NCBI GenBank assembly: GCA_009703925.1
Contig: WLFD01000005.1
Span: forward strand, 1-38,206
DNA: 38,206 nt
Origin: Actinomycetota bacterium
GTDB taxonomy: Bacteria > Actinomycetota > Acidimicrobiia > Acidimicrobiales > Acidimicrobilacustridaceae
Direction of reading: 5' to 3'
This document shows positions 1,136 to 30,686 of this stretch, piece by piece. The translations under genes and the position numbers were made by a program. The notes under the pieces are model-generated. The model ran no database searches and had not been told where the DNA came from. It saw only the letters and a list, made by a program, of their open reading frames with translations. Numbering within the stretch: the stretch's first letter is position 1; the number at the start of each line of letters is the position of its first letter.

Positions 1136-1220
1136 GGGTCGGTGCCCGAGTGGCCAAAGGGAACGGGCTGTAAACCCGTCGGTTATGCCTTCGAAGGTTC
1201 GAATCCTTCCCGGCCCACCA
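1136..1220 (+). tRNA. tRNA-Tyr (anticodon GTA), class II, CCA encoded
   Basis: The acceptor GGGTCGG pairs with CCGGCCC, including one T-G wobble. The anticodon stem ACGGG/CCCGT closes loop CTGTAAA (anticodon GTA). A long variable arm (about CGGTTATGCCTTC) follows, then T arm GAAGG-TTCGAAT-CCTTC, discriminator A and an encoded CCA at 1218-1220. The long variable arm is normal for bacterial tRNA-Tyr. Confidence 0.96.
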
Positions 1221-1221
1221 T

Positions 1222-1253
1222 CCGGCTCCCCGCCCATCGGGCGGGGCTGCCGG
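1222..1253 (+). terminator. Strong hairpin just after tRNA-Tyr, possible terminator
   Basis: Outer arms CCGGC (1222-1226) and GCCGG (1249-1253) enclose CCCCGCCC (1228-1235), loop ATC, and GGGCGGGG (1239-1246). The stem is very GC-rich and begins 2 nt after the tRNA. No T tract follows, so intrinsic termination is plausible but not certain. Confidence 0.5.
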
Positions 1254-1307
1254 ACGGAACCCAATGATGTTCGCTGCAACAGGCGAGTCGACGGAACGAG
1301 GAGATCC

Positions 1308-1796
1308 ATGCCGAGCTTCGATGTCGTATCAGAGGTGGACGAGCAGGAAGTCCGCAATGCGGTCGATCAGGCCGAGCGGGAGCTCACGACGCGATTCGAT
1401 TTCAAGGGAACGAACTCGTCGATCGAGTTGAAGGATCTCGAGATCGACCTGAAGTCGAGCAGTTCCGACCGGCTGACTGCCGTGCGTCAGGTTCTCGAGG
1501 AGAAGCTCGTCAAGCGCAAGGTGTCGCTGAAATCACTCGAGTACGGCAAGGTCGAAGATGCCGCCGGGGGAACCGTGCGCCAGAACGTCAAGATCAACGC
1601 CGGAATCACCTCCGAGAAGGCCCGGGCGGTCAACAAGGCCATCAAGGAGATGGGACTCAAGGGAATCCAGTCCCAGACCCAGGGCGATCAGGTGCGCGTC
1701 ACGGGGAAGAAGCGCGACGATCTTCAGGCCGTGATGGAAGGTCTCAAGAAGACCGACCTGGAGATTCCGCTGCAGTTCAACAACTTCCGCGACTGA
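1308..1796 (+). CDS. yajQ: YajQ-family nucleotide-binding protein (UPF0234)
   Basis: A 162-residue cytoplasmic protein matching the YajQ family end to end. It starts MPSFDVVSEVDEQEVRNAVD, has TTRFDFKGTNSSIE in the first third, and ends with the family's PLQFNNFRD C-terminus. Some YajQ proteins bind cyclic di-GMP and modulate transcription; others are reported to bind tRNA or nucleotides. The exact role here is unknown. The start is ATG at 1308, with GAGGAG about 5 nt upstream. The frame is open further 5' but lies over the tRNA-Tyr hairpin, so the upstream extension is rejected. The gene is convergent with the HAD gene, 19 bp from stop to stop. Confidence 0.95.
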   Translation: MPSFDVVSEVDEQEVRNAVDQAERELTTRFDFKGTNSSIELKDLEIDLKSSSSDRLTAVRQVLEEKLVKRKVSLKSLEYGKVEDAAGGTVRQNVKINAGITSEKARAVNKAIKEMGLKGIQSQTQGDQVRVTGKKRDDLQAVMEGLKKTDLEIPLQFNNFRD

Positions 1797-1822: not shown

Positions 1823-2325
1823 TAGTACCCGGAGTGGATGTACACGCACGGCACACCCTCGCCGTGGAACATCTCCCAGTTCCGACGATCGTCCTCGAAT
1901 GCGAGCGCCAGATCGAATCCGTAACTGCGGAATTCACGGACGACCCGCTGTTTGAACAGACGCGATGAGCCGTGATCGTCCCAGCCGCGCATGATCAACG
2001 CGTCCCAACGCAACTTGTAACGATCGAGCCATCCGAGTGTCTGCGGTCGGACACGCAGTGGTCGCGCCGTTAGCAGAAGGATCGTCAGTTCGCTGTCGAG
2101 GCAATCGAGGAGACGCGCCACCTCCGCAATCGGGTCATCGTCGCCGCATGCAGCGAAGAACGCTTCCCAGTCGCGATAGGGCCAGTCGAGATAGTGCTGG
2201 CGACGCGACGCATCGGAGAGCACGCCGTCCATGTCGAAGACGACGGCGCGGCCCGGGGTAACGGGCCCATCGCGCCAGTGCCAATTCTCCGGTTGTTCTT
2301 CAGGTGAATCCGGTGTGAAGGTCAT
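1816..2325 (-). CDS. HAD-superfamily phosphatase, polynucleotide kinase 3'-phosphatase-like
   Basis: A 169-residue HAD hydrolase. Motif I VVFDMDGVLSD (28-38) supplies the nucleophile Asp31 and Asp33. Motif II is LLLTARP (Thr86), Lys125 is a candidate motif III residue, and motif IV is FEDD (143-146). The layout (a short WPYRDWEAF insert after motif I, then RWDALIMRGWDDH before the Lys) resembles the phosphatase domain of T4-type polynucleotide kinase, so a nucleic acid or nucleotide phosphate substrate is possible (inference). Its ATG overlaps the acs stop by 4 nt (ATGA), implying translational coupling to acs. It is the last gene of the minus-strand array. Confidence 0.75.
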   Translation of the reverse strand: MTFTPDSPEEQPENWHWRDGPVTPGRAVVFDMDGVLSDASRRQHYLDWPYRDWEAFFAACGDDDPIAEVARLLDCLDSELTILLLTARPLRVRPQTLGWLDRYKLRWDALIMRGWDDHGSSRLFKQRVVREFRSYGFDLALAFEDDRRNWEMFHGEGVPCVYIHSGYYD

Positions 2326-4295
2326 GAACCACTTCCCGGACCGTGCGCAGCACTTTCCTTGATTGCATCGACGACACCGGGATCGGCAAGCGTCGTCGTG
2401 TCGCCGAGATCGCGACCTTCTGCAACGTCGCGGAGAAGGCGACGCATGATCTTTCCACTTCGCGTCTTCGGAAGATCGGGAACGATGATCACACGCTTGG
2501 GACGGGCGGTGGGACCGATTTTGTGGGCGACATGCTGACGGAGTTCCTCGACAAGTTCGTCGTTGGCGGTGACCGAACTTCGCAGGATCACGTAACCGAC
2601 AATCGCCTGACCGGTGAGGCTGTCCGTCGCCCCGACCACCGCAGCTTCGGCCACGGCGCGATGGTCGACCAGTGCGCTTTCGACCTCCGTGGTCGAGATG
2701 CGGTGACCGGAGACGTTCATCACGTCGTCGACGCGACCGAGAAGCCAGAGGTACCCGTCCTCGTCGATCTTGGCGCCATCGCCAGCGAAATAGCGGCCCG
2801 GATACTGGCTCCAATACGTCTCGCGGTAGCGGTCGGGATCTCCCCAAATGCCGCGGAGCATCGCCGGCCACGGGCGGGTCAACGTGAGATAGCCACCACC
2901 ATGTTCGATCCGGTTCCCTTCTTCATCGACCACTTCGACGCCGATTCCAGGCAGGGCGAATGTTGCCGATCCGGGTTTGGTGACCGTGACACCCGGCAGG
3001 GGCGTGATCATCTGGCCGCCTGTTTCGGTCTGCCACCACGTGTCGACGATCGGGCATCGACTCCCGCCGATGTGCTCGTGGTACCACATCCACGCTTCGG
3101 GATTGATCGACTCGCCGACAGTGCCGAGAAGACGCAATGACGAGAGGTCGTGTGCGGCGGGCTCGGCGTCGCCCCACTTCATGAACATGCGGATCGCCGT
3201 CGGTGCCGTATAGAGCTGGGTGACGCCGTAGCGCTCGACGATGTCCCACATCCGGTCCTTGGCCGGCGTGTCGGGAGTGCCTTCGTACAGAACCGACGTT
3301 GCTCCGTTGGCCAGCGGCCCGTAGACGATGTAGCTGTGGCCCGTGACCCAGCCGATGTCGGCCGAGCACCAGTAGATGTCGGTCTCGGGTTTCAGATCGA
3401 ACACGTACTTGTACGAGAACGCGACCTGTGTGAGATAGCCGCCGGTCGTGTGCATGATGCCCTTGGGCTTCGCGGTGGTGCCGGAGGTGTACAGGAGAAA
3501 GAGCAGGTCTTCCGAGCCCATCGCCTCGGGGACAGAAACCTCCGAGGCCGACAACATGAGCTCGTGATACCAGTGATCTCTACCGTCGACCATCACGACA
3601 TCGGATCCGGTGCGCCGGACCACGACAACGCCTGTCACGGACGGACAGTTCACCACGGCTTCGTCGACATTGACCTTGAGGGGAGCAGCGGCGCCCTTCC
3701 GGTAGCCGCCGTCGGCCGTGACGATCACCTTGCATCCGCCATCCTGGACCCGGTCGATGATCGAGTCCGGTGAGAACCCGCCGAAGATCACCGAATGGGC
3801 GGCACCGATACGGGTGCACGCCAACATCGCCACGGGAAGCTCGGGAATCATCGGCATGTAGATCGCGACCCGATCGCCGCGCTCGACACCCAGGCCCTTC
3901 AGGACGTTCGCGAACTTCGAGACCTCGGTCAGCAGATCGGAATAGGTGATCGTGCGGGTATCTCCCGGTTCCCCTTCCCAGTGATACGCGACCCGATCAC
4001 CGATTCCGGCTTCGACCTGACGGTCGAGACAGTTCACCGAGACGTTGAGTTCGCCACCGACGAACCACTTCGCGTCGGGGAGTTTCCATTCGAGCGTCGT
4101 GTCGAAATCCTTCGACCACGTCAGCAGTTCGCGGGCCTGTCGGGCCCAGAAGGCCTCGTAATCGGCTTCGGCCTCTCGATGAAGAGAATCGTCCGACACG
4201 AGAGCCTGTGCGACGAATTCCGGTGACGGCGGAAAGGTCCGCTCCTCGAGGAAATAGTCCTCGATGGTCGCATCGGTGTTCGAGTGTTCCGTCAC
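2322..4295 (-). CDS. acs: Acetyl-CoA synthetase (AMP-forming)
   Basis: Activates acetate to acetyl-CoA via acetyl-AMP in the cytoplasm. The 657-residue length is normal for Acs. The N-terminal ACAS region is followed by the P-loop YTSGTTAKPKG (269-279), the adenylate-binding DTWWQTETGG segment, and the hinge/A8 region LWLLGRVDDVMNVSGHR. The C-terminal PKTRSGKIMRR carries catalytic Lys615, which protein acetyltransferases modify in well-studied Acs enzymes. GTG at 4295 is chosen because AGGGGG sits 7 nt upstream; a TTG two codons earlier would overlap that site. It lies 34 bp after midA on the same strand and overlaps the HAD gene by 4 nt. Confidence 0.96.
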   Translation of the reverse strand: MTEHSNTDATIEDYFLEERTFPPSPEFVAQALVSDDSLHREAEADYEAFWARQARELLTWSKDFDTTLEWKLPDAKWFVGGELNVSVNCLDRQVEAGIGDRVAYHWEGEPGDTRTITYSDLLTEVSKFANVLKGLGVERGDRVAIYMPMIPELPVAMLACTRIGAAHSVIFGGFSPDSIIDRVQDGGCKVIVTADGGYRKGAAAPLKVNVDEAVVNCPSVTGVVVVRRTGSDVVMVDGRDHWYHELMLSASEVSVPEAMGSEDLLFLLYTSGTTAKPKGIMHTTGGYLTQVAFSYKYVFDLKPETDIYWCSADIGWVTGHSYIVYGPLANGATSVLYEGTPDTPAKDRMWDIVERYGVTQLYTAPTAIRMFMKWGDAEPAAHDLSSLRLLGTVGESINPEAWMWYHEHIGGSRCPIVDTWWQTETGGQMITPLPGVTVTKPGSATFALPGIGVEVVDEEGNRIEHGGGYLTLTRPWPAMLRGIWGDPDRYRETYWSQYPGRYFAGDGAKIDEDGYLWLLGRVDDVMNVSGHRISTTEVESALVDHRAVAEAAVVGATDSLTGQAIVGYVILRSSVTANDELVEELRQHVAHKIGPTARPKRVIIVPDLPKTRSGKIMRRLLRDVAEGRDLGDTTTLADPGVVDAIKESAAHGPGSGS

Positions 4296-4329
4296 GATCA
4301 ATCCCCCTGAACGAATCTGTTGCCGGAGC

Positions 4330-5493
4330 CTACCGGCCTGTCTCGTCGGCCTCGTCCGGCTTCCCCGCGACTATCCATTGCATCACGGTGAATCCGCCCA
4401 GCCCCCCACCCTCGAGAAGAGCCTCGGCCTCCCGGATCCGACTTCGGCCCCGGATTTCATTCAGACCGGGCGCGTGTGGGTTCGCTTCCCAGACCCGTCG
4501 ACCCTCGTCAACCAGTTCGTCGATGCCGAATCGTTCGAGGAAATCACTCTGGGATTCGACGACGTTCGCCGAAACGTCCATCTGGATCTGGTCGAGAGCG
4601 ACATCGACGGTGATGTCCTGCGATCCGGGTGAATCGAGAGGATGGGAGCCGCGTTCGTGTCCCCGGAATGTGCGCATCCATCCGAAGTCGGGACGCGCCG
4701 CCAGTTCTTTCGTCGTCGATGCGTAGTCGATCACCACGAGTCGACCGTCGCCGATACGGGAGCGCATGTCGGCGATCCATCCAATCGCCTGTGCCTGGAG
4801 CGGGAACCAGCTGCCCGTGCCTCCTGAATCGGTTTTCGCCGCGAGCTCCCGAGTCGCCGTGTCCCCGGGCCGGTCGAGAGCGCGAACGACGAACTCACAG
4901 AGGCCGTCCTCGTCGATCGCGACTTCCAGCGCCTCGACCACTCCCTCGCCGTCGTCATCTCCCGGCCGCACGCGGACGATGTCGAACGCGAGGTTGTCCA
5001 GAAGCTCGTTGGCGAACACGATTCCGTCGAATGATTCGGGAGGCTCCGGAGCCGAGACGAAGACCGGACCGGTGCCGACGAGGCCGCGGAGCACGAAGGC
5101 CTGCAGTTCCTCGCCCGACCGCTCCCCCACCCATCCGGCGAGGTGCGCTTCATGCAGAAGACGTTGGCCCGGGGCTCGTTCGACAAGAACATGGAGAAGT
5201 ACGCCCGCGCACTCGGGACCGGCAAGACGGATCGAACGGGCAAGGGTCCCGGGTCCGGCCCCGACCTCGACGAGGACGAACGGATCCGGATCGCCGAGTT
5301 CGTGCCACCATTCGTCGAGCGCCCGGGAGATGACCGCCCCGAACAGGGGGCCGACCTCGGGACTCGTCAGGAAATCACCGCGACCGCCGGCTCGACCGCC
5401 GGTCGCATAGAAACCTGCAACCGGATCGTAGAGAGCACGGTCGACAAACTCCGAGAACGGAATGGATCCACCAGCATCACTCGCCGGTACCAC
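4330..5493 (-). CDS. midA: MidA/NDUFAF7-family SAM-dependent methyltransferase
   Basis: A 387-residue class I methyltransferase of the MidA (DUF185) family. GDFLTSPEVGPLFG at 39-52 is the family signature, VEVGAGPGTL at 75-84 is the SAM-binding motif I, and FANELLDNLAFD follows in the middle. The human homologue NDUFAF7 dimethylates an Arg of complex I subunit NDUFS2 (the NuoD homologue). The GTG start at 5493 lies 7 nt beyond the nuoN stop, and that TGA plus the next GG forms the Shine-Dalgarno TGAGG. Tight linkage to the 11-subunit nuo set makes a role in maturing that complex attractive (inference). Bacterial MidA substrates are mostly unproven. Confidence 0.88.
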   Translation of the reverse strand: MVPASDAGGSIPFSEFVDRALYDPVAGFYATGGRAGGRGDFLTSPEVGPLFGAVISRALDEWWHELGDPDPFVLVEVGAGPGTLARSIRLAGPECAGVLLHVLVERAPGQRLLHEAHLAGWVGERSGEELQAFVLRGLVGTGPVFVSAPEPPESFDGIVFANELLDNLAFDIVRVRPGDDDGEGVVEALEVAIDEDGLCEFVVRALDRPGDTATRELAAKTDSGGTGSWFPLQAQAIGWIADMRSRIGDGRLVVIDYASTTKELAARPDFGWMRTFRGHERGSHPLDSPGSQDITVDVALDQIQMDVSANVVESQSDFLERFGIDELVDEGRRVWEANPHAPGLNEIRGRSRIREAEALLEGGGLGGFTVMQWIVAGKPDEADETGR

Positions 5494-5500
5494 TTCGGCC

Positions 5501-7012
5501 TCAGCGGGCGAGGGAGAAGAGCGTGATCGGATCGGTGAAGTGTGTCAGCAGGCCCGGGAAGACGCCGACGATGACCGTGACCCCGACGGTGAGGACCACC
5601 GCTGCCTTCAATGCAACAGGGACGCGGATGGGAGCGACGTCGCCGTCCGGCGCATCGTCCATCCACATGACCCGGATGAGTCGTCCGTAATAGCCGAACG
5701 CGATTACCGAGTTGATGCCGACGATCGTCGCAAGGATGTAGCCACCGGAAGTCCCGGCGGAAGTGAGCGCCCGGAAGATCTCGAGTTTGGCGAACCAGCC
5801 GCCGGCCGGCGGGATGCCGGCGAGAGCGAAGAGGAAGACCGTCATGGCGACGGTGAGCGCCGGCGCATACTGGAACAGACCTGCGAAAGACGTGATGGAC
5901 GCCGAGCGGGTCTTGCGGGCGACGGCGATCACCACAGCGAATGCTCCGAGGTTCATCGCCGCGTAGATGAGCAGGTAGAGAACGACCGAACGCAGTGCTT
6001 CTCCGCCGACAGCGAGGCTGGTTCCGGCGACGGCGAGCGGAGCGAGGATGTACCCGGCCTGTGCAATGCCCGAGTAGGCCAGCATCCGGACGATGTTGGT
6101 CTGGCGGAGGGCAACGAGGTTTCCGAAGGTCATCGTGACCGCAGCGAGAACCCAGATCAGCGGACCGTAGACGTCGTCGCGACCGTAGAAGCCGATGAAC
6201 AGGATGTTCATCAGTGCAACGAAACCTGCCGCCTTCGAAGCAACGGCAAGGAACGAGGTCACCGGGGTGGGCGCACCTTCGTACACATCGGGTGCCCATG
6301 TGTGGAAGGGCACTGCCGACACCTTGAAGCCGAATCCGATGATGACGAAAACGATGCCGAGCGTGACGATCGGCTGTGAGGAAATGGCGTCGCCGAGTTT
6401 CGGTCCAATCTCGACGAGGAGGGTCGAGCCGGTGATTCCGAAGATCAGCGACATGCCGTAGAGAAGAATCGCAGAGGCGAAGACACCCATCAGGTAGTAC
6501 TTCAGGCCGGCCTCGTTGCTCTTCGCGTCACGCTTGCGCCAGGCCGCCAGCATGTACGCCGGGATCGAGATCAGCTCGAGAGCCACGAAGATACTGATCA
6601 GATCGCGGGCCGAGGTCATGACCATCATGCCGAGCACCGATGCAAGGATGAGCTGGTAATACTCGCCTTCGTAGTAATCGCCCTCGGCGATGTAATTCGT
6701 GGAGAGCAGGATCACGACATAGGCCGAGAGAAGGAACAGCGCCTTCAGCACGAGCGCATAATCGTCGACCACATAGGCGCCACCGAAGAGAACACGTTCG
6801 GTGCCGTTGTAGGCGAGGGAGACGACCGGGATCAGTGCGGCAAGCAGCCCCACGCCGGCGATCGACGAGGTCGCCCATCGCGAATTCTCGCCGGTGAACG
6901 CGTCGACCAGAACCAGCACGACGAGCGTGGCCGCGACGATGATCTCGGGCGCGAGTGCGTGATAGTCGATACTGGGCGCTGTCCACGCGAACGTCGCGAG
7001 CTGGGCGAACAA
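5501..7012 (-). CDS. nuoN: NADH-quinone oxidoreductase subunit N, 11-subunit set
   Basis: Antiporter-like proton-pumping membrane subunit of complex I. Visible family features are LELISIPAY with the TM5 glutamate, and FKVSAVPFHTWAPDVYEG with the pumping-site lysine, followed by GAPTPVTSFLAVASKAAGF. About 503 residues and many hydrophobic helices, as expected. The preferred start is TTG at 7012: GGAGG lies 8 nt upstream and it leaves 4 bp after the nuoM stop. The frame is open upstream to 7066, but that would overlap nuoM heavily. It is the last nuo gene before midA. Confidence 0.93.
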   Translation of the reverse strand: MFAQLATFAWTAPSIDYHALAPEIIVAATLVVLVLVDAFTGENSRWATSSIAGVGLLAALIPVVSLAYNGTERVLFGGAYVVDDYALVLKALFLLSAYVVILLSTNYIAEGDYYEGEYYQLILASVLGMMVMTSARDLISIFVALELISIPAYMLAAWRKRDAKSNEAGLKYYLMGVFASAILLYGMSLIFGITGSTLLVEIGPKLGDAISSQPIVTLGIVFVIIGFGFKVSAVPFHTWAPDVYEGAPTPVTSFLAVASKAAGFVALMNILFIGFYGRDDVYGPLIWVLAAVTMTFGNLVALRQTNIVRMLAYSGIAQAGYILAPLAVAGTSLAVGGEALRSVVLYLLIYAAMNLGAFAVVIAVARKTRSASITSFAGLFQYAPALTVAMTVFLFALAGIPPAGGWFAKLEIFRALTSAGTSGGYILATIVGINSVIAFGYYGRLIRVMWMDDAPDGDVAPIRVPVALKAAVVLTVGVTVIVGVFPGLLTHFTDPITLFSLAR

Positions 7013-7016
7013 GAGA

Positions 7017-8576
7017 TCAGCCTCCGTGTCCGGGAATGGCCGAAAGCACGTTGGCGACGGCGCCATCCGTGACCCGGAAGATCAGGTTCGGGAACACACC
7101 CAGGACCAAGATGAGAACAAGCATCGGGGTCCAGGCGACCCATTCGGTGAAGCTCACGTCGTGGATGTGCGGATCGTCCTCGAACTCCGCCTTCGGGACA
7201 CCGAATGCGACCCGCTGGTAGAGCCACAGAAGGTACGCCGCGGCGAGAACGGTGCCGATCGCAGCGACCACCATGAGCACACGGAAGAAGGCCACGTTCA
7301 GATCGCCACCCGGGTTGTAGGCGGAGAGGATCGCCGGGAACTCGCCCCAGAAACCGGCCAGACCCGGAAGACCGAGCGACGCCATCACGGAGAAGCCGAG
7401 GATCCAGCCCATGTGCGGCATCTGCTTGAGCATGCCGCCGAGACGGGCTATGTCCAGCGTGTGGAAACGGTCCTTGGTCGAACCGGCGATGAAGAAGAGC
7501 ATGCCGGTGATGAGACCATGCGCAACCATGCCGAACACCGCGGCATTGAGACCGAAATCGGTGAGGGTAGCGATGCCGAGCATCACGAATCCCATGTGCG
7601 AGACCGAGGAGAAGGCGATGAGTCGCTTCATGTCGGTCTGGGCCAGACAGCAGAGTGCTCCGTAGATGATTCCGACGACCGCGAGCACACCGATGAACGG
7701 CGCCCAGGTCTCGGCCGCTTCCGGAAGGATCGGGATCGCGATACGGATGAAGCCATAGGTGCCGAGCTTCAGGAGTACGGCGGCAAGGATGACCGAGCCG
7801 ACGGTCGGGGCCTGGGTGTGAGCATCCGGCAACCATGTGTGGAACGGGAACATCGGGACCTTGATGCCGAAGCCCATGAACATGCCACCGAAGATCCAGA
7901 GGGCGGCGCCGGCGGAGATGCCGGTGGCCAACTCGGGAAGAAGTCGCATGTCGAACGTGTGCATCATCGTGCCGTCGACGTTGATCTGATCGGAGAGGAA
8001 GTAGAGCGTCATGAAACTGACGATCATCAACGCCGAGCCGAACAGTGTGTAGAGGAAGAACTTCAGGGACGCGTACTGACGCTTCTCCCCGCCCCAGACG
8101 CCGATCATGAAGTACATCGGGAGGAGCACAACTTCGAAGAAGACGAAGAACAGGATGAGATCCTGGGCGACGAATGATCCCATCATGCCGGTCTGCAGGA
8201 TGAGGATGAGGATGAGGAACGCCTTGGGATTACGGGGTTCCGGGAAGTGGTTCCACGAATAGATGATGCACAACGGGACCACGAGGATCGTGAGGGCGAT
8301 GAGCGGCAGCGAGATGCCGTCCATGCCGACGATGTAGCGGCTGTTGATGATCGGGATCCACGACTTGTCCACGACGAACTGCATCGTGCCGGTCGCGTCG
8401 TAGTCGAAATTGGCAAACAACAAGATGCCAACGAACGCAACGACGAGGCTCGTGCCAAGTGCAACCGTCTTGTGGAACTGTTCGCGTGCTTTTGGCACGA
8501 CGAACATGACGAGGGCGCCCATGAGGGGCAGGAAGACGGCGAGGCTCAAGCCCCAGCTGTTCAGAAAGTCTTTCAT
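7017..8576 (-). CDS. nuoM: NADH-quinone oxidoreductase subunit M, 11-subunit set
   Basis: A 519-residue antiporter-like pumping subunit. The key charged residues are present: Glu148 in FFEVVLLPMYF, Lys239 in GIKVPMFPFHTWLPDAHTQ, and Lys270 in LLKLGTYGF. These correspond to the TM5 Glu and the TM7/TM8 Lys of the channel in characterised NuoM proteins. The first helix starts almost at the N-terminus (MKDFLNSWGLSLAVFLPLMG). It lies 18 bp after nuoL and 4 bp before the proposed nuoN start. Confidence 0.96.
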   Translation of the reverse strand: MKDFLNSWGLSLAVFLPLMGALVMFVVPKAREQFHKTVALGTSLVVAFVGILLFANFDYDATGTMQFVVDKSWIPIINSRYIVGMDGISLPLIALTILVVPLCIIYSWNHFPEPRNPKAFLILILILQTGMMGSFVAQDLILFFVFFEVVLLPMYFMIGVWGGEKRQYASLKFFLYTLFGSALMIVSFMTLYFLSDQINVDGTMMHTFDMRLLPELATGISAGAALWIFGGMFMGFGIKVPMFPFHTWLPDAHTQAPTVGSVILAAVLLKLGTYGFIRIAIPILPEAAETWAPFIGVLAVVGIIYGALCCLAQTDMKRLIAFSSVSHMGFVMLGIATLTDFGLNAAVFGMVAHGLITGMLFFIAGSTKDRFHTLDIARLGGMLKQMPHMGWILGFSVMASLGLPGLAGFWGEFPAILSAYNPGGDLNVAFFRVLMVVAAIGTVLAAAYLLWLYQRVAFGVPKAEFEDDPHIHDVSFTEWVAWTPMLVLILVLGVFPNLIFRVTDGAVANVLSAIPGHGG

Positions 8577-8594
8577 CGGGTTGGTCCTGAGCTC

Positions 8595-10862
8595 CTAGAT
8601 GACGAACACGAAGACGCCGGCAAGAACGACTGCACCGGCGAAGAGGATTGAGGCGTACTGCTGAACCTTGCCTGTCTGGATCCGACGAAGGAACTGACCA
8701 GCGCCTTCGGAAACGGATCCAGATCCGTTCACTGCACCATCGACGACAAGTTGATCGATGTCTTTGTATACAAAACCGGCGGAAACTCTGGCGACAGTGC
8801 CGACACCGTTCACCACACCATCGAGCACATTCTGGTTGACCCAGTTCGATGCACGAGCCAGCGGTCCCTTCGTCGCCCCCGCGATGCCATCGGTGTAGAT
8901 GGTGTCGAGGTAGTACTTGTTCTCGAGGAACCCGTAGCCGGCGCGGGCGAGTCCGCTCCTGCCGGTGAGGCCGTGAGGCCCGCGGTTCTTCGCGTAGTAC
9001 TGGTAGACGAGGAAGAAGCCGGCGGCGGCGAGTACCGTCGAGGCGATTGCGAGCCACGGCGTGAATTCGGCGTGCTGCAACGGCGGGAAGGCGAACGTCG
9101 GTTCGACATAGTGCTCGAAACGGGTGGTGAATCCACCCGGGAGTTTCAGACCGAAGAAATTGGTCGGGAAGTTCGTGAATCCGAGGAACACGGCGCAAGC
9201 GGCGAGGATGATGAGCGGGACCGTGATCACCTTGGGCGATTCATGCGGCTTGGCATGGCCCCGGTAGTTGCCCCAGAAGGTCATCCAGTAGGCGCGGCCC
9301 ATGTAGGCGGCGGTCATGAACGCGGTGATCAGGCCGAACACGAGCATCAACGTGTACGCGCTTTCCTGCCCGCTGGACGCACCGGCCAGGATCTCGTCCT
9401 TCGACCAGAAACCTGCGAGCGGGAAGATGCCGGCCAGCGCGAGTGTGGCGGCAAGGAAGGTTGCGTGCGTGATCGGCATCTTCTTGCGAAGGCCACCCAT
9501 CTCGCGCATGTCGAAGGTGTGATGGCAGGCGTGACTCACCGAACCGGCACCGAGGAACAGGCAGGCCTTGAAGAACGCGTGTGTGAAGAGATGGAAGACA
9601 CCTGCAGTCCAGGCGCCGACACCGAGGGCCATGACCATGTATCCGAGCTGGGAGATCGTCGAATAGGCGAGCACCTTCTTCAGGTCGGTCTGCACGAAGG
9701 CAAGGAGACCGCCGATGATGGTTGTGAAGCCACCGATGAACGCCACGTAATGCAACGAGCTCGAACCGATACCCAGACCGGCGAAGAAGACTCCGTAGAG
9801 ACGGGCGATGAGGTACACGCCGGCGACAACCATCGTCGCCGCATGGATCAGCGCCGAGACGGGCGTCGGTCCGGCCATCGCATCGGGCAACCAGGTGTGC
9901 AACGGGAACTGGCCCGATTTCGAGGTGACACCACCGAAGAGACACAAACCACCCACAAGGAGCAACGTCGTGTTGGCCGCACCCGAGAGCGCGTATTCGT
10001 TGATGTGGAGCACATTGAAGCTGTTTGCACCGGCAGCGAAGAACGTGATCGCCACGCCGATGATCAGACCCATGTCACCGACACGGTTCGTGAGGAACGC
10101 CTTGAGGGCGGCGTCGGAGTTCTTCTTCTCCTCCCACCAGTGCCCGATGAGACCGAACGAACAGACGCCGACCAACTCCCAGCCCACCAACATCTGCAGG
10201 GTGTTTGAGCTCATGACGTAGAAGAGCATCGACGCCGTGAAGAGCGAGAGGAACGCGTAGTAGTGGGTGTAGCGGATGTCGCCGCGCAGATACTCGGTCG
10301 AGTAGATGTGTACGAGCAGCGAGATGATGCAGACGGTTATGAGCATCATCGCCGTCAGACCGTCGACGAGGGTTCCCGCTTCGAACGAGATGCCACCCAT
10401 CTGGAACCAGGTGACTGTCCGGACAACAGGCGGGACCGATCCGTGTTCACCGGATCCGTGCTCTTCGGATGCCGTCGCTCCGGCCGCGCTCTCCGCACCG
10501 GTCGATGCAAGTTCCAGGGCGATGGGCGTGACTGTCGGGGTTCCGGATGCGGTGGCGGCAGTCTCACCCGAATCATGGGTCGCTGCATTCGCTTCGGCTT
10601 CGACGTCCTCTGCGTTCTGCGGGGTGAGGCCGTTGGCCTTCACGATGTCCTGCGCGAGCTTCTCGCCGGTCGGCGGGTTGTTGACGCGGTTGATCCACTG
10701 CCCGGCGACTACGACCGAGAACAGGAGGCACAACGAGACGGCGGCGATTCCGATACCGGCGGTGGCCCGGGTACCGGCACGCTTGCCGAAGAAAAGGATG
10801 ATGAGGAACGACAACGCCATGATGGCGGGGACGATCCAGACCTTGTCGAGGAGTTCAGGCAT
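8595..10862 (-). CDS. nuoL: NADH-quinone oxidoreductase subunit L, 11-subunit set, with large loop insertion
   Basis: Distal pumping subunit with the long lateral helix. The hallmark LPDAMAGPTPVSALIHAATM is present, as are VGWELVGVCSFGLIG with the TM5 Glu and a C-terminal helix region. At 755 residues it is 100 or more longer than usual. Residues about 59-148 form a low-complexity Ala/Glu/Ser/Thr loop between the second and third helices, probably on the outer side. Near the C-terminus, VLDGVVNGVG and VVDGAVNGSG look like a duplicated segment where most NuoL proteins have one. ATG at 10862 is preferred; a GTG one codon upstream is possible. The Shine-Dalgarno is weak. Confidence 0.94.
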   Translation of the reverse strand: MPELLDKVWIVPAIMALSFLIILFFGKRAGTRATAGIGIAAVSLCLLFSVVVAGQWINRVNNPPTGEKLAQDIVKANGLTPQNAEDVEAEANAATHDSGETAATASGTPTVTPIALELASTGAESAAGATASEEHGSGEHGSVPPVVRTVTWFQMGGISFEAGTLVDGLTAMMLITVCIISLLVHIYSTEYLRGDIRYTHYYAFLSLFTASMLFYVMSSNTLQMLVGWELVGVCSFGLIGHWWEEKKNSDAALKAFLTNRVGDMGLIIGVAITFFAAGANSFNVLHINEYALSGAANTTLLLVGGLCLFGGVTSKSGQFPLHTWLPDAMAGPTPVSALIHAATMVVAGVYLIARLYGVFFAGLGIGSSSLHYVAFIGGFTTIIGGLLAFVQTDLKKVLAYSTISQLGYMVMALGVGAWTAGVFHLFTHAFFKACLFLGAGSVSHACHHTFDMREMGGLRKKMPITHATFLAATLALAGIFPLAGFWSKDEILAGASSGQESAYTLMLVFGLITAFMTAAYMGRAYWMTFWGNYRGHAKPHESPKVITVPLIILAACAVFLGFTNFPTNFFGLKLPGGFTTRFEHYVEPTFAFPPLQHAEFTPWLAIASTVLAAAGFFLVYQYYAKNRGPHGLTGRSGLARAGYGFLENKYYLDTIYTDGIAGATKGPLARASNWVNQNVLDGVVNGVGTVARVSAGFVYKDIDQLVVDGAVNGSGSVSEGAGQFLRRIQTGKVQQYASILFAGAVVLAGVFVFVI

Positions 10863-10873
10863 CACGGCGCGAA

Positions 10874-11188
10874 TCAGCCCTTCAGCAGATCGACATCATT
10901 GACGTCGATGCTTTGGCGGTTGCGGTAGATCAACAACACGATCGCCAGACCAACGCCAACCTCTGCGGCTGCGATGGCGATGACGAACAAGGCGAAGACC
11001 TGCCCGGACATGTTGGACACATCGTTGGCGTGCCACATGGCACCGAACGCAACGAGGTTGATATTGCATGCATTGAGGATCAGTTCGATCGACATGAGCA
11101 CAAGCACCGCGTTCTTGCGGGCGAGCACGCCATAGATGCCGATGCAGAAAAGGATTGCGCCGAGGAAGAGGAATTGGTTGACGAGCAT
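10874..11188 (-). CDS. nuoK: NADH-quinone oxidoreductase subunit K, 11-subunit set
   Basis: A 104-residue, three-helix membrane subunit. Helix 2 carries the conserved Glu in [14 protein letters not shown], and helix 3 the second Glu in [19 protein letters not shown], both part of the proton path. The ATG overlaps the nuoJ stop by one base (TGATG). The hydrophilic C-terminus [16 protein letters not shown] is typical. Confidence 0.96.
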
Positions 11189-11697
11189 CAGTCGCGCCTA
11201 GCCAGAACGATGGCGCCGATGAGCGCAGCCAACAGGAGTACCGAAATCACTTCGAACGGAAGCAGATACGTGGAGAAGATCGAATCGCTGACCTGGGCTG
11301 TGCGCTGGACGAGCAGATCGCCGAATTCCCGATCACCGAAGCCGTCCCAGAGCGAATAACCGAGCAGACCGAGCATCGCCACGCCGATGACACCGGCACC
11401 GATCTTCGGGATCTTCCCGTTGTCGAGATCCTCGTCGGTTCCGGTCTTTGCCCGGGTGAGCATGATTCCGAAGAGGAACAGCACGATGATCGCCCCGAGG
11501 TACACGAGGACCTGGGTGACGGCAACGAATTCGGCGGCGAGCAGGATGTACTGGGCGGCGACACCGGCAAGAACGACCACGAGCCACAGGGCCGCGTGCA
11601 TGAGGTTCTTGCACGTGACGACGCGGATCGCGCCGAACACGATGAGTGCGGCAATCACATAGAACGCGATGTTCTGGGCAACGAGGAGAGCAAGCAT
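11188..11697 (-). CDS. nuoJ: NADH-quinone oxidoreductase subunit J, 11-subunit set
   Basis: A 169-residue membrane subunit with about five helices. [20 protein letters not shown] in helix 3 is the conserved NuoJ segment with the pi-bulge Tyr/Gly region. The frame is open upstream, but ATG at 11697 is chosen because it overlaps the nuoI stop by one base (TGATG), the junction type used throughout this array. It ends in the TGATG overlap with nuoK. Confidence 0.95.
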
Positions 11698-12200
11698 CAG
11701 TCCCGGGGCACCTTCTTGACCTTGGCTTCCGATCCGGCTTCGTAGGCTTCGAAGTCCGGGACCGTTTCCATCCACTGTGCCAGACGGCTCTTGTCGTGGA
11801 GGAGATCCGCTATGCGCACCTCGGAGTACTCATGTTCCGGGCTCCAGAAAAGCGCATCGAACGGGCACACTTCGACACAGATCCCGCAATACATGCAGAG
11901 CGAGTAATCGATGTCGAATCGGTCGAGTTCGTTCTTCTGTCGCGGCTTGCCGCCTTCGCGGCGCGGCGGGGCCACGTACTTGTGGGCTTCGATGAAGATG
12001 CACCAGTCGGGGCACTCACGGGCGCACAGCATGCACGAGGTGCAGTTCTCTTCCTTGAGCGAGATGACACCGCGGGCGCGGGCCGTGGGCATCTCGCGCT
12101 CGTGCGGGTACTGGATGGTCTGCGGGCCCGATTTGAGCGTCTTGACCATTTCGCCGAATGTGACACCGAGACCCTTGATGAGACCTGGGACCTGAGGCAT
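11697..12200 (-). CDS. nuoI: NADH-quinone oxidoreductase subunit I, 11-subunit set
   Basis: A 167-residue protein binding two [4Fe-4S] clusters (N6a, N6b). The motifs are C53-x2-C56-x2-C59-x3-C63P and C102-x2-C105-x2-C108-x3-C112P. It normally passes electrons from NuoG to NuoB. This set has no NuoG, so NuoI may be the entry point for electrons, as proposed for ferredoxin-using 11-subunit enzymes (inference). The ATG overlaps the nuoH stop by one base (TAATG). Confidence 0.96.
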   Translation of the reverse strand: MPQVPGLIKGLGVTFGEMVKTLKSGPQTIQYPHEREMPTARARGVISLKEENCTSCMLCARECPDWCIFIEAHKYVAPPRREGGKPRQKNELDRFDIDYSLCMYCGICVEVCPFDALFWSPEHEYSEVRIADLLHDKSRLAQWMETVPDFEAYEAGSEAKVKKVPRD

Positions 12201-13237
12201 TAGAGCACCACCTTTAGGACGGCCGTGGCCACGATGTTCAACAGGGCGAGCGGGATCAGGAACTTCCAGGCGAAGCTCTGGAGTTGATCCTCGCGGAATC
12301 GCGGGTAGGTGAATCGCACCCAGAAGATGATGAATGCGACAGCCATCACCTTGGCGAAGAGGACCGCCGGGCCGAGAATGTAATACCAGTCACTGTCGAC
12401 CGGAAGCCACGGAACGGCCCAACCGCCGAGGAACAGCACGGCGGCGATTCCGGCGAACACGAAAGCGGTCGCGAACTCGGCGAGGAAGAAGATGAGGAAA
12501 CGGAAGCCCGTGTACTCCACCTGATAACCGCTGACGATTTCGGACTCGGCCACGGGCATATCGAACGGCGGCTGGGTGAGTTCGGCCTGCACCGCTGCGA
12601 TGAAGATGAAGAAACCGATGAACTGCGTCAGGATGAACGGGTTCCCGATGGCGTCGAGTCCGAAGACTGCGCCATCGTTCTGGGAGATGACGATGCCGTT
12701 GAGGCTCATCGTCCCGGCCTGGATGACGACACCGACGACGGCGAGAACCATCGGGAGCTCGTAGGCGATCAGCTGCCCGGCGGCACGCAAGGCCCCCATG
12801 AGCGAGTACTTGTTGTTGGAGGACCAACCGGCCATCAGCACGCCGATGACCGAGAGTGACGAAATGGCCAAGACGTAGAAGACGCCGACATCGAGGTTCT
12901 CGACCACGAGATGCAGCGAGGAGGGCAGCGCCACGTAGAGCAGGAGTGTCGATGCGAGCACGACGAGCGGCGCGGCCTTGAACACCCAGAGATCGGCCCC
13001 GTTCGGAGCGATGTCCTCTTTCTGGAGGAACTTCACACCGTCGGCGAGCAACTGGAGGGTGCCTCGGGGTCCGGCTTCCTGAGGGCCGAGACGACTCTGC
13101 ATCCAGCTCATGATCTTGAAGAGGAAGACCATGCCGAGGATGAGCGCGGTCGTGGGAACCACGGCGCCGATGACGAGCACCTTGATGACTGTCGACAGCC
13201 AATAAGGCGGCGAGAACGCAGCAAGAAGAAGGGTCAT
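12200..13237 (-). CDS. nuoH: NADH-quinone oxidoreductase subunit H, 11-subunit set
   Basis: A 345-residue, eight-helix membrane subunit lining the quinone tunnel and anchoring the peripheral arm. Conserved features are QSRLGPQEAGPRG and LQLLADGVKF after helix 1, and PPFDMPVAESEIVSGYQVEY in the acidic loop. The ATG overlaps the nuoD stop by 4 bp (ATGA). The direct nuoD-nuoH junction shows that nuoE, F and G are absent without any residual sequence between them. Confidence 0.96.
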   Translation of the reverse strand: MTLLLAAFSPPYWLSTVIKVLVIGAVVPTTALILGMVFLFKIMSWMQSRLGPQEAGPRGTLQLLADGVKFLQKEDIAPNGADLWVFKAAPLVVLASTLLLYVALPSSLHLVVENLDVGVFYVLAISSLSVIGVLMAGWSSNNKYSLMGALRAAGQLIAYELPMVLAVVGVVIQAGTMSLNGIVISQNDGAVFGLDAIGNPFILTQFIGFFIFIAAVQAELTQPPFDMPVAESEIVSGYQVEYTGFRFLIFFLAEFATAFVFAGIAAVLFLGGWAVPWLPVDSDWYYILGPAVLFAKVMAVAFIIFWVRFTYPRFREDQLQSFAWKFLIPLALLNIVATAVLKVVL

Positions 13238-14409
13238 CGGTCGATGTCACCAAGGATGAAGTAGAGGCTTCCGAGGATCGAGATGAGGTCGGGCACGTAT
13301 GCGCCCCGCGCCACCCACGGAAGAATCGAGATGTTGTTGAACGATGCCGAGCGGATCTTGACGCGGAACGGCACGAGGTCGCCCTTGGACACGATGTAAT
13401 AGCCCATCTCGCCGAGGGGATTCTCGGTTGCGACGTAGGCCTCGCCTTCCGGAACCTTGATGATGCGCGGGACCTTGGCCATGACGGGACCGGCGGGTAT
13501 CGTCGTCAGCAGTTGCTTCACGATCTTCGCGGCCTCGCGGGTCTCCTGGAGACGGACCCACGTGCGGGCGAACGCGTCGCCGTCGGGATGGGTCCAGACC
13601 TTCCAGTCGGCCTGGTCGTAGACGAGGCCGGGAGGACAACTGTCGCGGCGGAGATCCCAGTCGACGCCCGAGGCGCGGAGGTTGGCGCCGGAAAGCCCAT
13701 AGGACAACGCGATATCCGCAGGGATGACCCCGATGCCGCGGGTGCGCGACTGGAAGATCTCGTTGCCGACAAGGAGGTCTTCCATCTCGTCACAGAAGGC
13801 GAGGAGCTTGTCCATCGCCACCAGCGAATCGGAGATCCAACCCTTCGGCAGATCGTCCTTGAGTCCGCCGATGCGGTCGAAGTTCGGATGGAAACGGCCA
13901 CCCGTCGCCGCTTCGATCTGGTTGAGAACGAATTCGCGGTCGCGGAATGCGTAGAAACCGGCGGTCATGCCGCCGAGCTGGAGCCCGAAGTCTCCGAGGA
14001 ACAGGGAGATGTTGGCCACGCGGGACATCTCGAAAAGGATCGTGCGGATCCATTGGGCGCGGGGCGGTGCTTCCACTCCCATGAGCTTTTCGGCCGCAAG
14101 GATGAACGGAACCTCGTTGGCGAAGCTGCCGAGCCAGTCGATCCGGTTGATCAACGCGTTGATCTGCGGATAGGAACGGACTTCGACGATCTTCTCGTAG
14201 CCGCGGTGCATGTAGCCGCAGATCGGCTCGGCCGAGATGACCTGTTCACCGTCGAGTTTGGCCACGATGCGCAGCGTGCCGTGGGTCGCCGGATGCTGCG
14301 GACCCATGTTGAGGGTCATGCCCTCGGATTCGAAATCGATGTTGACCCGGTTGTCTGTCGCCTCGGCGACAAGCGAGGAAATGTCGTCGCGATCACTCAC
14401 TGCGGTCAT
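13234..14409 (-). CDS. nuoD: NADH-quinone oxidoreductase subunit D, 11-subunit set, Trp at the quinone-site Tyr
   Basis: A 391-residue NuoD (49-kDa homologue) that forms the quinone pocket with NuoB. GPQHPATHG (36-44) carries the quinone-site His43. GYMHRGYEK (65-73) carries Arg69, equivalent to bovine Arg85, the NDUFAF7 methylation site. NRIDW (88-92) aligns with bovine DRLDY, so Trp92 replaces the conserved quinone-contacting Tyr (bovine Tyr108). The other NuoD in this window has Tyr there but Thr at the Arg position. It overlaps nuoC and nuoH by 4 bp each. Confidence 0.96.
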   Translation of the reverse strand: MTAVSDRDDISSLVAEATDNRVNIDFESEGMTLNMGPQHPATHGTLRIVAKLDGEQVISAEPICGYMHRGYEKIVEVRSYPQINALINRIDWLGSFANEVPFILAAEKLMGVEAPPRAQWIRTILFEMSRVANISLFLGDFGLQLGGMTAGFYAFRDREFVLNQIEAATGGRFHPNFDRIGGLKDDLPKGWISDSLVAMDKLLAFCDEMEDLLVGNEIFQSRTRGIGVIPADIALSYGLSGANLRASGVDWDLRRDSCPPGLVYDQADWKVWTHPDGDAFARTWVRLQETREAAKIVKQLLTTIPAGPVMAKVPRIIKVPEGEAYVATENPLGEMGYYIVSKGDLVPFRVKIRSASFNNISILPWVARGAYVPDLISILGSLYFILGDIDR

Positions 14410-15107
14410 TCGCTCTCCCCCTCTTCATCGTCGGTGGCACCACCGGGCATCGGTTCGACATCGACGATGCCGGGCCACGGGCGCACGCGCCGGGCCAGGA
14501 GCGGGAAATCCTTGCGCATCGGATGACCCTGGAAGTCGGTGGGCAGATACATGTTGATCATGTTGGGATGGCCGGCGAACGAGATGCCGAACATCTCCCG
14601 GACCTCGCGCTCGTGCCAGTTCGAACCTGCGTAGACCGAGGTCCAGGTGGGAGCCGAGAGGTCGTCGTCGGGCACGTCGGTCTTGAAATGGATTCCCATG
14701 CCGTCGGCGAGGGAATAGAGACGGGCGATGATCTGGAAACGGGTTTCGCCGCCGGCGTACCCGTGCGTCATCGGACCGGCATCTTTGGCCGGTGTGCCGG
14801 AAACGATCAGGTCTTCCTGGGCGTCCATGTCGCGGCCGAATGGCGACGGGAGCCAGTCGATGGCCGAGACGTAATCGAAGAAGACATAGCCCATCGCTTT
14901 GGCGGTCTCGGCGGTCTCGCGCCAGACCGAGCGGTCGACGCGGATCCAGAGATCGTCACCGGCGCGGATGTGCGAACCGAGGACGCCATCGCCGAGGCGG
15001 GCGGTGAATTCGGCAAGCAGGGCTTCGCGTCGTTCGTCGACGACGGGCGCTTCGGCCTCGGCGGCAGTTGCGGTTTCGGTGGTGTCAGCCGATGACAATC
15101 GGATCAC
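14406..15107 (-). CDS. nuoC: NADH-quinone oxidoreductase subunit C, 11-subunit set
   Basis: A 30-kDa-type subunit of the peripheral arm. The conserved C-terminal block reads [18 protein letters not shown], then [15 protein letters not shown]. At 233 residues it carries an acidic, Ala-rich N-terminus of about 25 residues and an acidic tail (DDEEGESE). GTG at 15107 overlaps nuoB by 23 bp, but its GGAAGG abuts the start. TTG at 15098, with the same GGAAGG 9 nt away, is an alternative. Confidence 0.94.
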
Positions 15108-15585
15108 CCTTCCAACGCTCGGCCATGTCCTCGTGGGCGATTCGCTCCTGGAGGAGGATGATGCCCTCGAGCAGGGCTTCGGGCCGGGGCGGACAACCCG
15201 GGACGTAGACGTCGACGGGAATCAACTGATCCACGCCCTTGGTGACCGAGTAGCTGTCCCAGTAGGGACCGCCGCAGTTCGCACACGAACCCATCGAGAT
15301 CACGTACTTGGGATCGGGCATCTGCTCGTAGAGACGCACGACGGCCGGAGCGAGCTTGTCGGTCACGGTGCCGGCGATGACCACGAGGTCGGCCTGACGG
15401 GGACTGGCCGGGAACGGGATGACACCGAGGCGCATGACGTCGTAGCGCGGGGACGCGAAAGCCGCTCCCATCTCGATGGCACAGCAGGCGAGGCCCCACT
15501 GGTAGGCCCAGATCGAATACTTGCGGGAGATGTTGAGCAGCTTGGCCAGCGGCTTCGGCAGTTTTCCACTCTCGACTAGGCCCAT
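15085..15585 (-). CDS. nuoB: NADH-quinone oxidoreductase subunit B, 11-subunit set
   Basis: A 166-residue subunit holding cluster N2, the last relay before quinone. Ligands are the tandem Cys34-Cys35 in [13 protein letters not shown], Cys101 in [10 protein letters not shown], and Cys131 in [11 protein letters not shown]. The sequence differs strongly from the actinobacterial-type NuoB at 30687-31289, so it is not a recent duplicate. ATG at 15585 is chosen because GAAGG lies 7 nt upstream; it overlaps nuoA by 10 bp. The longer upstream frame lies over nuoA. Confidence 0.96.
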
Positions 15586-15950
15586 TGGAGCACCTTCTTT
15601 CGCCAGGCGTAGAGAAGGCCGAGTGCGAGAATCCCCACGAAAAGGAGCATCTCCACAAGACCGAAAACCCCGTAGGACTCGAGCTGGGTGGCCCACGGGA
15701 AGATGAAGACCGCTTCGACGTCGAACATCACGAAGAGCAGCGCATAGATGTAATACCGGATCTGGCTCTGCGACCAGCCGCTGCCGACGGGATCGACACC
15801 GGACTCGTACACGAGGTACTTCTGTTCCTGCGGACGCACCGGACGGAAGATCTTGCCTATGCCGAGGAGACCCGCGCCCAGACCCACGCCGACTCCGGCG
15901 AAGATGGCAACGGTCAGGTACTGCCGTACGAAATCGGAGTACTCAGACAT
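15576..15950 (-). CDS. nuoA: NADH-quinone oxidoreductase subunit A, 11-subunit set
   Basis: A 124-residue, three-helix membrane subunit. The characteristic sequence is [11 protein letters not shown], then [23 protein letters not shown] with the conserved Asp/Glu pair. The Cys usually found at YECG is Ser here (YESG), whereas the other NuoA has YECG. First gene of the 11-subunit set; its ATG lies 71 bp after the nuoN stop of the 14-subunit operon and has only a weak AGG ribosome site. Confidence 0.95.
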
Positions 15951-16021: not shown

Positions 16022-17689
16022 TTATCGGTTGGAGATACTGGTGATCGGACGTTCGAACTGCACGAGTGCAGGTTGGGCGTCTCGTGCAGGATTGACCAGC
16101 AGATCGGGAACGATGCCGTAACCGATGGTCACCACGACACAGATCGTAAGAGCAATCCCGGCGGAAAGCGGAATCCGGATTCGGGTCGAGTGCGCCGGTT
16201 CCGGACCATCGTTGCCGTCGTCGCCGCCCGACATGAACATCGCCACGATGACCCGCAGATACAGGAACGCCGAGATGACGGCAGAAACCATGGCCACGAT
16301 GGCCAAAGGCGTGCTGTGGGCGTTGACCGCTGCGGTGATCGCGTAGAACTTGGCGAAGAATCCAGCCGTGAACGGAATGCCGGCCTGCGCAAGAAGCAGG
16401 ATGGTGAAGGCGATGGCCAGTTGCGGATTGGAGCGTGAAAGCCCCTTGTAATCCGACAGTTGGTGATTGCCGTCCCCGCGTCCGCCGACGAGCGTCGCGA
16501 TTCCGAACGAACCGGCGACCATGAAGGTGTAGACGGCCAGATAGAAGACCGTCGCCGAGTTCCCCTGTTCGGATCCGGCCTGAACCGCCATGAGGATGAA
16601 CCCGGCGTGGCTGATCGAGGAGTAGGCGAGCATCCGCTTGACGTTGCTCTGGACGATGGCGAGGGCGGCGCCCACAACCATCGAGAGTATGGCCAGGGCG
16701 TAGATCATCGGCTTCCAGGTCGAGCCGTAGTTCGAGAAGGTGAGGACGAAGATCCGCACGAGTCCCGCGAATGCGGCCGCCTTGACGCCGGCAGCCATCC
16801 AGGCGACGGCCGGAGTGGGAGCACCGTCGTAGACATCGGGGCTCCACGCGTGGAACGGAACCGCCGAGACCTTGAAGGCGAGGCCCACCAGAAGGAGACC
16901 GAGACCGATGAGGAGCAGTCCGTTCTGGACGGGAACCACCTGCGCCATGAAGTTCTTGATCTCGACCAGGTTCGTCGACCCGGTTGCGCCGTAGATCATG
17001 GCGATGCCGTAGAGGAAGAAGGCGGAAGAGAACGCGCCGAGGATGAAGTACTTCATCCCGGACTCCTGCGACTGCGAGCGCCGCAGGTGCATTCCCGCCA
17101 TCACGTAGACCGCGATCGAGAGGGTTTCGAGGCCGATGAACAGGACGATCAGATCGTTCGACATGGCCATGATCACGCCGCCGGCGGCGGAGATGAGCAT
17201 CAGCACATAGAACTCGGGACCTTCCATGTCCTCGCGACGCAAGTAGGCATTGGCCAACAGCGCAGCGAGGATGACTCCCGCGCACAACGTGATGATCACG
17301 AAGATTCCGAAGCCGTCGATGCCCACGGCACCACCGACTGTCGAGAATGGGCCCGGTTGCGAGGGCGAAAGTTCCCAGCCGAGCAACGAGCTCCAGTTCT
17401 GAACGCGGGCCCAGAGGGGAACTGCGCTGATCGCAGCAGCCACCGCGATCGCGACGGTCACGGTCGAGAACAGTCCACGCGGCGCCTTGCCGCGCAGGAA
17501 CGAGGAGAAGGTGAGCACGAGCAGTCCTCCGACAAGGAGGATCAGCATCGGGAGCAGCGCCGACCAGTCGACCGACGGTCCGGCGAGACTGACTGTGCCT
17601 TCACTGGCCGAGCCCGACGTCGAAGCAGCTCCGACAAGAGCATCGGTGAGCGGTTGGGTCTGGGCAAGAATCGAGCCGAGCGCGATCAC
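16022..17689 (-). CDS. nuoN: NADH-quinone oxidoreductase subunit N, 14-subunit set
   Basis: A 555-residue antiporter-like pumping subunit. GLETLSIAVYVMAG carries the TM5 Glu, and FKVSAVPFHAWSPDVYDG the channel Lys, followed by GAPTPAVAWMAAGVKAAAF. An N-terminal stretch of about 40 residues before the first helix accounts for the extra length. GTG at 17689 overlaps the nuoM stop by 4 bp (GTGA). Last gene of the full operon. Confidence 0.96.
   Translation of the reverse strand: MIALGSILAQTQPLTDALVGAASTSGSASEGTVSLAGPSVDWSALLPMLILLVGGLLVLTFSSFLRGKAPRGLFSTVTVAIAVAAAISAVPLWARVQNWSSLLGWELSPSQPGPFSTVGGAVGIDGFGIFVIITLCAGVILAALLANAYLRREDMEGPEFYVLMLISAAGGVIMAMSNDLIVLFIGLETLSIAVYVMAGMHLRRSQSQESGMKYFILGAFSSAFFLYGIAMIYGATGSTNLVEIKNFMAQVVPVQNGLLLIGLGLLLVGLAFKVSAVPFHAWSPDVYDGAPTPAVAWMAAGVKAAAFAGLVRIFVLTFSNYGSTWKPMIYALAILSMVVGAALAIVQSNVKRMLAYSSISHAGFILMAVQAGSEQGNSATVFYLAVYTFMVAGSFGIATLVGGRGDGNHQLSDYKGLSRSNPQLAIAFTILLLAQAGIPFTAGFFAKFYAITAAVNAHSTPLAIVAMVSAVISAFLYLRVIVAMFMSGGDDGNDGPEPAHSTRIRIPLSAGIALTICVVVTIGYGIVPDLLVNPARDAQPALVQFERPITSISNR

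Positions 17690-19331: not shown

Positions 19332-19332
<1 letters not shown>
17686..19332 (-). CDS. nuoM: NADH-quinone oxidoreductase subunit M, 14-subunit set
   Basis: A 548-residue pumping subunit. Glu155 in MFEITLVPLYMLIGKWG, Lys242 in VKVPSFPFHTWLPDAHTEAP and Lys273 in LLKLGTYGF are the expected channel residues. A hydrophilic C-terminal extension of about 50 residues (with MEEKVDRYNEPDTQAGRG) follows the last helix. The ATG overlaps the nuoL stop by one base (TGATG). Confidence 0.96.
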
Positions 19333-21317
<1,985 letters not shown>

Positions 21318-21322
21318 GTTCC

Positions 21323-22281: not shown

Positions 22282-22282
22282 C

Positions 22283-30136: not shown

Positions 30137-30144
30137 GGGATCCG

Positions 30145-30684: not shown

Positions 30685-30686
30685 GA

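Follow-up and report, generated by a model that had tools for sequence, protein, structure and literature searches.

A MidA/NDUFAF7-type methyltransferase gene associated with the Arg-type member of two complex I gene sets in an actinobacterial genome

Two nuo gene sets and the adjoining midA gene

The window, i.e. the whole analysed stretch of 38,206 nucleotides from an actinobacterium of the order Acidimicrobiales (contig WLFD01000005.1; all coordinates refer to it), carries two consecutive nuo gene sets and a gene for a methyltransferase of the NDUFAF7/MidA family, all on the reverse strand. The 14-gene set nuoA–N (16022–31756) is located directly upstream of an 11-gene set (15950 to 5501), whose order A-B-C-D-H-I-J-K-L-M-N without nuoE, nuoF and nuoG is found in the window as well as in its relatives. 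The second set consists of nuoA (15576–15950), nuoB (15085–15696), nuoC (14406–15107), nuoD (13234–14409), the block of nuoH, nuoI, nuoJ, nuoK, nuoL and nuoM (7017–13237) and nuoN (5501–7066). Of these, nuoA and nuoC were assigned from the list of open reading frames, nuoN from this list and synteny, the nuoH–nuoM block from the list and the identical order in most 20-kb midA regions, and nuoD from its PF00346 domain and phmmer matches to NdhH, NDUFS2 and Nqo4. The midA gene (4330–5493) has a GTG start and 387 codons, and its product is assigned to the SAM-dependent methyltransferases of the COG1565/PF02636 type. The arrangement of the nuo set and midA recurs across the class and is thus not a product of chance.

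At the junction of nuoN and midA (5494–5503), the stop codon TGA is followed by GGCCGAA and the GTG start, in agreement with the spacing of 7 bp reported in the first-pass annotation. The same annotation had considered the nuoN stop as part of a ribosome site (TGAGG). A GAGG sequence 5 nucleotides before the GTG, overlapping the nuoN stop, might indeed serve as a weak Shine-Dalgarno element, and this part of the proposal is plausible; a conserved ribosome site built from the nuoN stop was rejected because the intergenic sequence differs among relatives, in which only the close packing of the two genes is kept.

Several neighbouring features were recorded in passing. An acetyl-CoA synthetase-like gene (2322–4301, reverse strand) lies downstream of midA and is found at this position in many related genomes of the class. 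A YajQ-like gene, recognized by eye, is found near the end of the 11-gene set (1185–1796, forward strand) and likewise in distant families (L242, 1675–2163; L248, 3491–3976). The cluster is also present, with a MidA of 82% identity, in a record entitled as a Bifidobacterium breve MAG (L002), a title which probably reflects a binning or naming error.

The two sets differ at the position known as the intersubunit residue switch near cluster N2. In NuoD of the 11-gene set, Arg69 (MHRGYEK), the predicted methylation target, is encoded by CGC at 14203–14205 and corresponds to the position of human NDUFS2 Arg85, while the switch position of its NuoB is a Thr (AGTVTDK, codon 15367–15369). In the 14-gene set, NuoD (28781–30148, PF00346) carries Thr110 (LHTGMER, codon ACC, 29819–29821) and NuoB (30687–31289) carries Arg87 (AGRVSQK, codon 31029–31031). 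Both NuoD residues had been read in this way before and were confirmed here. In alignments, the residue opposite Arg69 is an Arg in the NdhH of cyanobacteria and chloroplasts (GYLHRGMEK) and a Thr in Thermus Nqo4 (GYLHTGFEK), and the nearest PDB chain of the 14-set NuoD is the Thr-type 8e9g. Both states of the switch are therefore present in the window, and the Arg of the 14-subunit complex is, as judged from the encoded residues, not simply lost and is carried on NuoB instead. Wherever both subunits are readable, Arg-type NuoD is paired with a NuoB Thr and Thr-type NuoD with a NuoB Arg. The motif HRG was found in all 11-set NuoD sequences of the class read across the switch position, and HTG in 58 of the 58 readable Thr-type NuoD sequences of the tree set.

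Family and modelled fold of MidA

The midA product matches PF02636 with 84.4 bits (E 1.2e-23), well above the curated cut-off of 23.3. Its only sequence relatives in the PDB, according to phmmer, are the COG1565 proteins 4f3n and 1zkd and Dictyostelium MidA (5ztz). An AlphaFold2 model calculated with 34 homologues (mean pLDDT 90.3) superimposes onto 4g67, 5zu0 and 5ztz with Z-scores of 32.9–34.5 over 332–340 residues; for Dictyostelium MidA (5ztz/5zu0) the values are Z 32.9–33.3 and an rmsd of 2.7–2.9 Å over 336–340 residues. The next unrelated methyltransferase fold follows at Z 13.8, which indicates a MidA fold beyond the generic Rossmann methyltransferase. The best structural matches are the COG1565 proteins from Burkholderia (4f3n/4g67) and Rhodopseudomonas (1zkd), with Z-scores of 31–34 and 23–24% identity; they differ from the present protein in being proteobacterial and were deposited without a tested substrate.

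The signature motifs are recognizable as motif I (VEVGAGPGTL, residues 75–84), ANELLDN (161–167) and PGSQDIT (289–295). Among the 34 homologues, Gly78, Gly80 and Gly82 of the SAM motif I (GxGxG) are nearly invariant and Glu163, Asp166, Asp256, Tyr257 and Asp293 are invariant. On the basis of family, modelled fold and SAM motifs, the midA product is a true member of the COG1565/NDUFAF7 family with a predicted methyltransferase activity.

Distribution of midA and Arg-type NuoD

In the class of the window, 149 genomes were searched with both PF02636 and PF00346. The midA gene is present in 126 and absent in 23 of them. A second NuoD accompanies midA in 124 of the 126 genomes; the other two yielded no NuoD at all, and in one of these midA lies directly behind a nuoN of the 11-set type. 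The 23 genomes without midA comprise 14 with a single NuoD, which belongs to the Thr type wherever it was read, five whose extra PF00346 matches are only weak and hydrogenase-like, and four in which the Arg-type 11-set reaches the contig end where midA is expected (in one of them, G101, the expected distance was taken from its relative G030). The nine class genomes that seemed to combine a second NuoD with the absence of midA accordingly reduce to the five with hydrogenase-like matches and the four with truncated sets, and midA was found in none of the 19 class genomes lacking an Arg-type second NuoD. On a tree of the 14-set (Thr-type) NuoD, the 11-set changes its state at least four times independently and midA changes likewise, i.e. 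midA was lost together with the Arg-type set at least four times; the concordant pairs amount to 3.8 of 4 with none opposite, in a sign test which with four pairs cannot reach 0.05 alone. Of 58 class regions with lengths up to 20 kb, 39 have the midA start at most 150 nucleotides from the 11-set nuoN and 45 at most 1 kb from it; in nine, more than 5 kb separate the two genes or they lie on different contigs. The link between midA and NuoD survives physical separation.

A sample of 216 genomes of the phylum was analysed with DNA patterns for Arg- and Thr-type NuoD, including the Arg variants HRA and HRS. Arg-type NuoD was detected in 60 of the 62 genomes with midA, whereas midA was detected in only two of the 40 genomes with Thr-type NuoD alone (G230 and G327) and in none of the 84 with neither NuoD motif. 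Outside the class of the window, 45 genomes have Arg-type NuoD with midA, 31 Arg-type NuoD without midA, two only Thr-type NuoD with midA and 33 only Thr-type NuoD without midA (Fisher p 2.6e-8, a value that ignores relatedness). In class and phylum alike, the linkage of MidA to the two NuoD types is not equal and is strongly one-sided towards the Arg type, and the first-pass prediction of a MidA restricted to the Arg-type complex gains support from it; the methylation itself we infer. Among control genomes, PF02636 exceeds its cut-off in Caulobacter, Synechococcus and Haloferax and stays below it in E. coli, Thermus and Deinobacterium; the NuoD types which we take these organisms to have fit the same pattern, E. 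coli excepted. A further scan of contig proteins with six peptide patterns recovered three relatives only, the patterns being too specific. The two exceptions with midA and only a Thr-type NuoD found (L253, L251 and L252) may reflect missing contigs or another task of MidA.

The association does not hold in the reverse direction. In an Arg-type 11-gene clade (GYMHRGFEKLAE; families f50, f79, f65 and f72 and one f51 genome; L237–L250), whose NuoB has the Thr, midA is absent in nearly all genomes at the search threshold, and hydrogenase-like Arg motifs of the phylum also occur without midA. The Arg type does not guarantee a MidA, and a rule leading from Arg to MidA fails in some lineages. Among the genes sampled behind nuoN of this clade, no replacement methyltransferase was seen, these genes encoding M48 and M23 peptidases; at two loci of the clade an M48 peptidase gene takes the place of midA behind nuoN.

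In five families (f48, f59, f68, f71 and f86) an Arg-type nuoD is present without any other nuo gene within the 12–20 kb read. Its distance from midA is 0–7 kb, the two genes occur in several mutual orientations, and the remaining genes of the second set are located elsewhere in the genome. The corresponding gap is visible in seven covered genomes (G155, G183, G193, G203, G223, G224 and G296), where nuoC is directly followed by nuoH with no nuoD in between, and NuoB of these nuoD-less sets has the Thr. The nuoD-less clusters and lone nuoD genes beside midA are those of loci L257–L260, L263–L265, L267, L268, L276 and L312–L324. As nuoD has left the operon and yet adjoins midA, the relocation marks NuoD as the likely partner of MidA.

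Proposed function, alternatives and comparison with known systems

We propose, with a probability of about 0.8, that MidA is an arginine methyltransferase and assembly factor of the 11-subunit complex I only and dimethylates Arg69 of its NuoD. Family, fold, SAM motifs, gene order, the partition of the NuoD and NuoB residues and the co-inheritance are shown; the dimethylation of Arg69, its timing during assembly and an effect on N2 are postulated by analogy to the human, Dictyostelium and Paracoccus enzymes. Human NDUFAF7 dimethylates NDUFS2 Arg85 during assembly, and the methylation is thought to allow NDUFS7 to join (PMC3829151, Rhein 2013). In a corresponding scenario, MidA would be translated right after nuoN, bind the free 11-set NuoD before NuoB joins and symmetrically dimethylate Arg69, which would end up against cluster N2 at the NuoD–NuoB interface. 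The 14-subunit complex, whose NuoD has a Thr and whose NuoB supplies the Arg that faces N2, would by this mirror arrangement offer MidA no target and need none, as the NuoB Arg, which the first-pass annotation had not noticed, compensates for the one missing in NuoD. The bacterium thus probably modifies one complex I and leaves the other alone. Against this reading speak E. coli NuoCD, in which the equivalent Arg is present but unmodified (PMC3750175, Carroll 2013), and the midA-less Arg-type clade, which together imply that the Arg can work bare; the two midA genomes with only a Thr-type NuoD found and the preliminary account of DNA methylation by the Wolbachia MidA (PMC12455994) count against it as well. 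The peptide SAEPICGYMHRGYEKIVE is a candidate MidA substrate in place of the 11-set NuoD.

The main rival explanation keeps MidA with the 11-subunit complex and assigns it another target, such as NuoB, NuoC or a different Arg of NuoD, or a role as chaperone with methylation as a secondary activity. Taken by themselves, operon position and co-inheritance link MidA to nothing more specific than the complex, and the Arg is not sufficient for the presence of MidA. However, nuoD alone, and neither nuoB nor nuoC, moved beside midA in several lineages, and NDUFS2 is bound by the enzymes of human and Dictyostelium, which modify its Arg at the position of Arg85 (PMC3829151, PMC9006661), so that we regard this explanation as unlikely. 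We attach considerably less probability to the view that midA merely hitch-hikes in the nuo operon and acts elsewhere, e.g. on DNA as proposed for the Wolbachia MidA, whose expression in E. coli yielded 166 methylated DNA bases (PMC12455994; preliminary according to its authors). The joint loss of midA and the whole cluster could represent a single deletion, but the co-occurrence persists in genomes that carry midA apart from the nuo set (G013, G080 and most of f42), the closest folds are of the COG1565/MidA type (Z 31–34 versus 14 for the best other methyltransferases), and a DNA target is disfavoured by the lack of midA in phylum genomes with neither type of NuoD. Least probable, and indeed quite improbable, appears a MidA serving both complexes, with NuoD Arg69 as its target in the 11-subunit enzyme and the NuoB interface Arg (AGRVSQK) as its target in the 14-subunit enzyme. 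Such a dual role could draw on the spatial overlap of the two Arg side chains in the Yarrowia and Thermus structures (PMC8042128), but the sequence contexts HRGYEK and AGRVSQK are unlike, and midA is missing in 38 of the 40 Thr-only genomes of the phylum and in all 19 such genomes of the class.

Returning to dimethylation of NuoD Arg69 as the preferred reading, we consider it slightly better than an even bet that NuoD and MidA form a two-gene evolutionary module which can leave the nuo operon as a unit, that MidA is complex-selective, and that the N2 switch picks the complex to be modified and may set N2 separately for two enzymes in one membrane. If this is true, the N2-adjacent dimethyl-arginine known from mitochondria and Paracoccus would extend to another phylum. 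A single membrane containing complexes I of the Arg and the Thr type, only one being served by a methyltransferase, would moreover provide an internal control, and the disputed role of the modification in assembly or in the tuning of N2 would become testable. The lineages in which nuoD and midA moved jointly include large-genome, Streptomyces-like actinobacteria, in which gene deletion is feasible.

Neither the kind of enzyme nor the kind of reaction is new, and a 2018 Cell Reports paper on MidA reportedly argued for its conservation from proteobacteria. A MidA tied to one of two complexes via the Arg/Thr switch and a mobile nuoD–midA pair were not found in the literature searched, which covered few subscription journals. 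Dual nuo clusters are likewise known: those of Candidatus Actinomarinales resemble the present ones in combining a 14-gene set with an 11-gene set lacking nuoEFG, and F420 was proposed as donor in the passages available (PMC7771536); unlike the present case, these passages mention neither midA nor the Arg/Thr switch.

Human NDUFAF7 and Dictyostelium MidA share family, fold and SAM motifs with the protein described here, and their partner is a NuoD homologue with an HRG target. The actinobacterium differs from both in having two complexes I of which one has the Arg, in the position of the gene within a nuo operon and in a complex of 11 subunits without NuoEFG. Paracoccus denitrificans is the closest bacterial precedent for the predicted modification: Arg65 of its Nqo4/NDUFS2, at the position equivalent to Arg69, is a symmetric dimethyl-arginine (PMC3750175) for which density was seen in a structure from 2024, whose authors state that the modification has been reported in no other bacterium (PMC11522691). 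The Paracoccus complex, however, is a single 14-subunit enzyme with supernumerary subunits. The switch itself was described from Yarrowia (NDUFS2-R121/NDUFS7-T122) and Thermus (Nqo4 Thr/Nqo6 Arg83), where the two side chains overlap in position close to N2 (PMC8042128, Hameedi 2021). The two positions and the two states are the same as in the window; in Yarrowia and Thermus the states are distributed over different organisms, whereas here they are united in a single genome and within a single gene cluster, with MidA tracking one of them.
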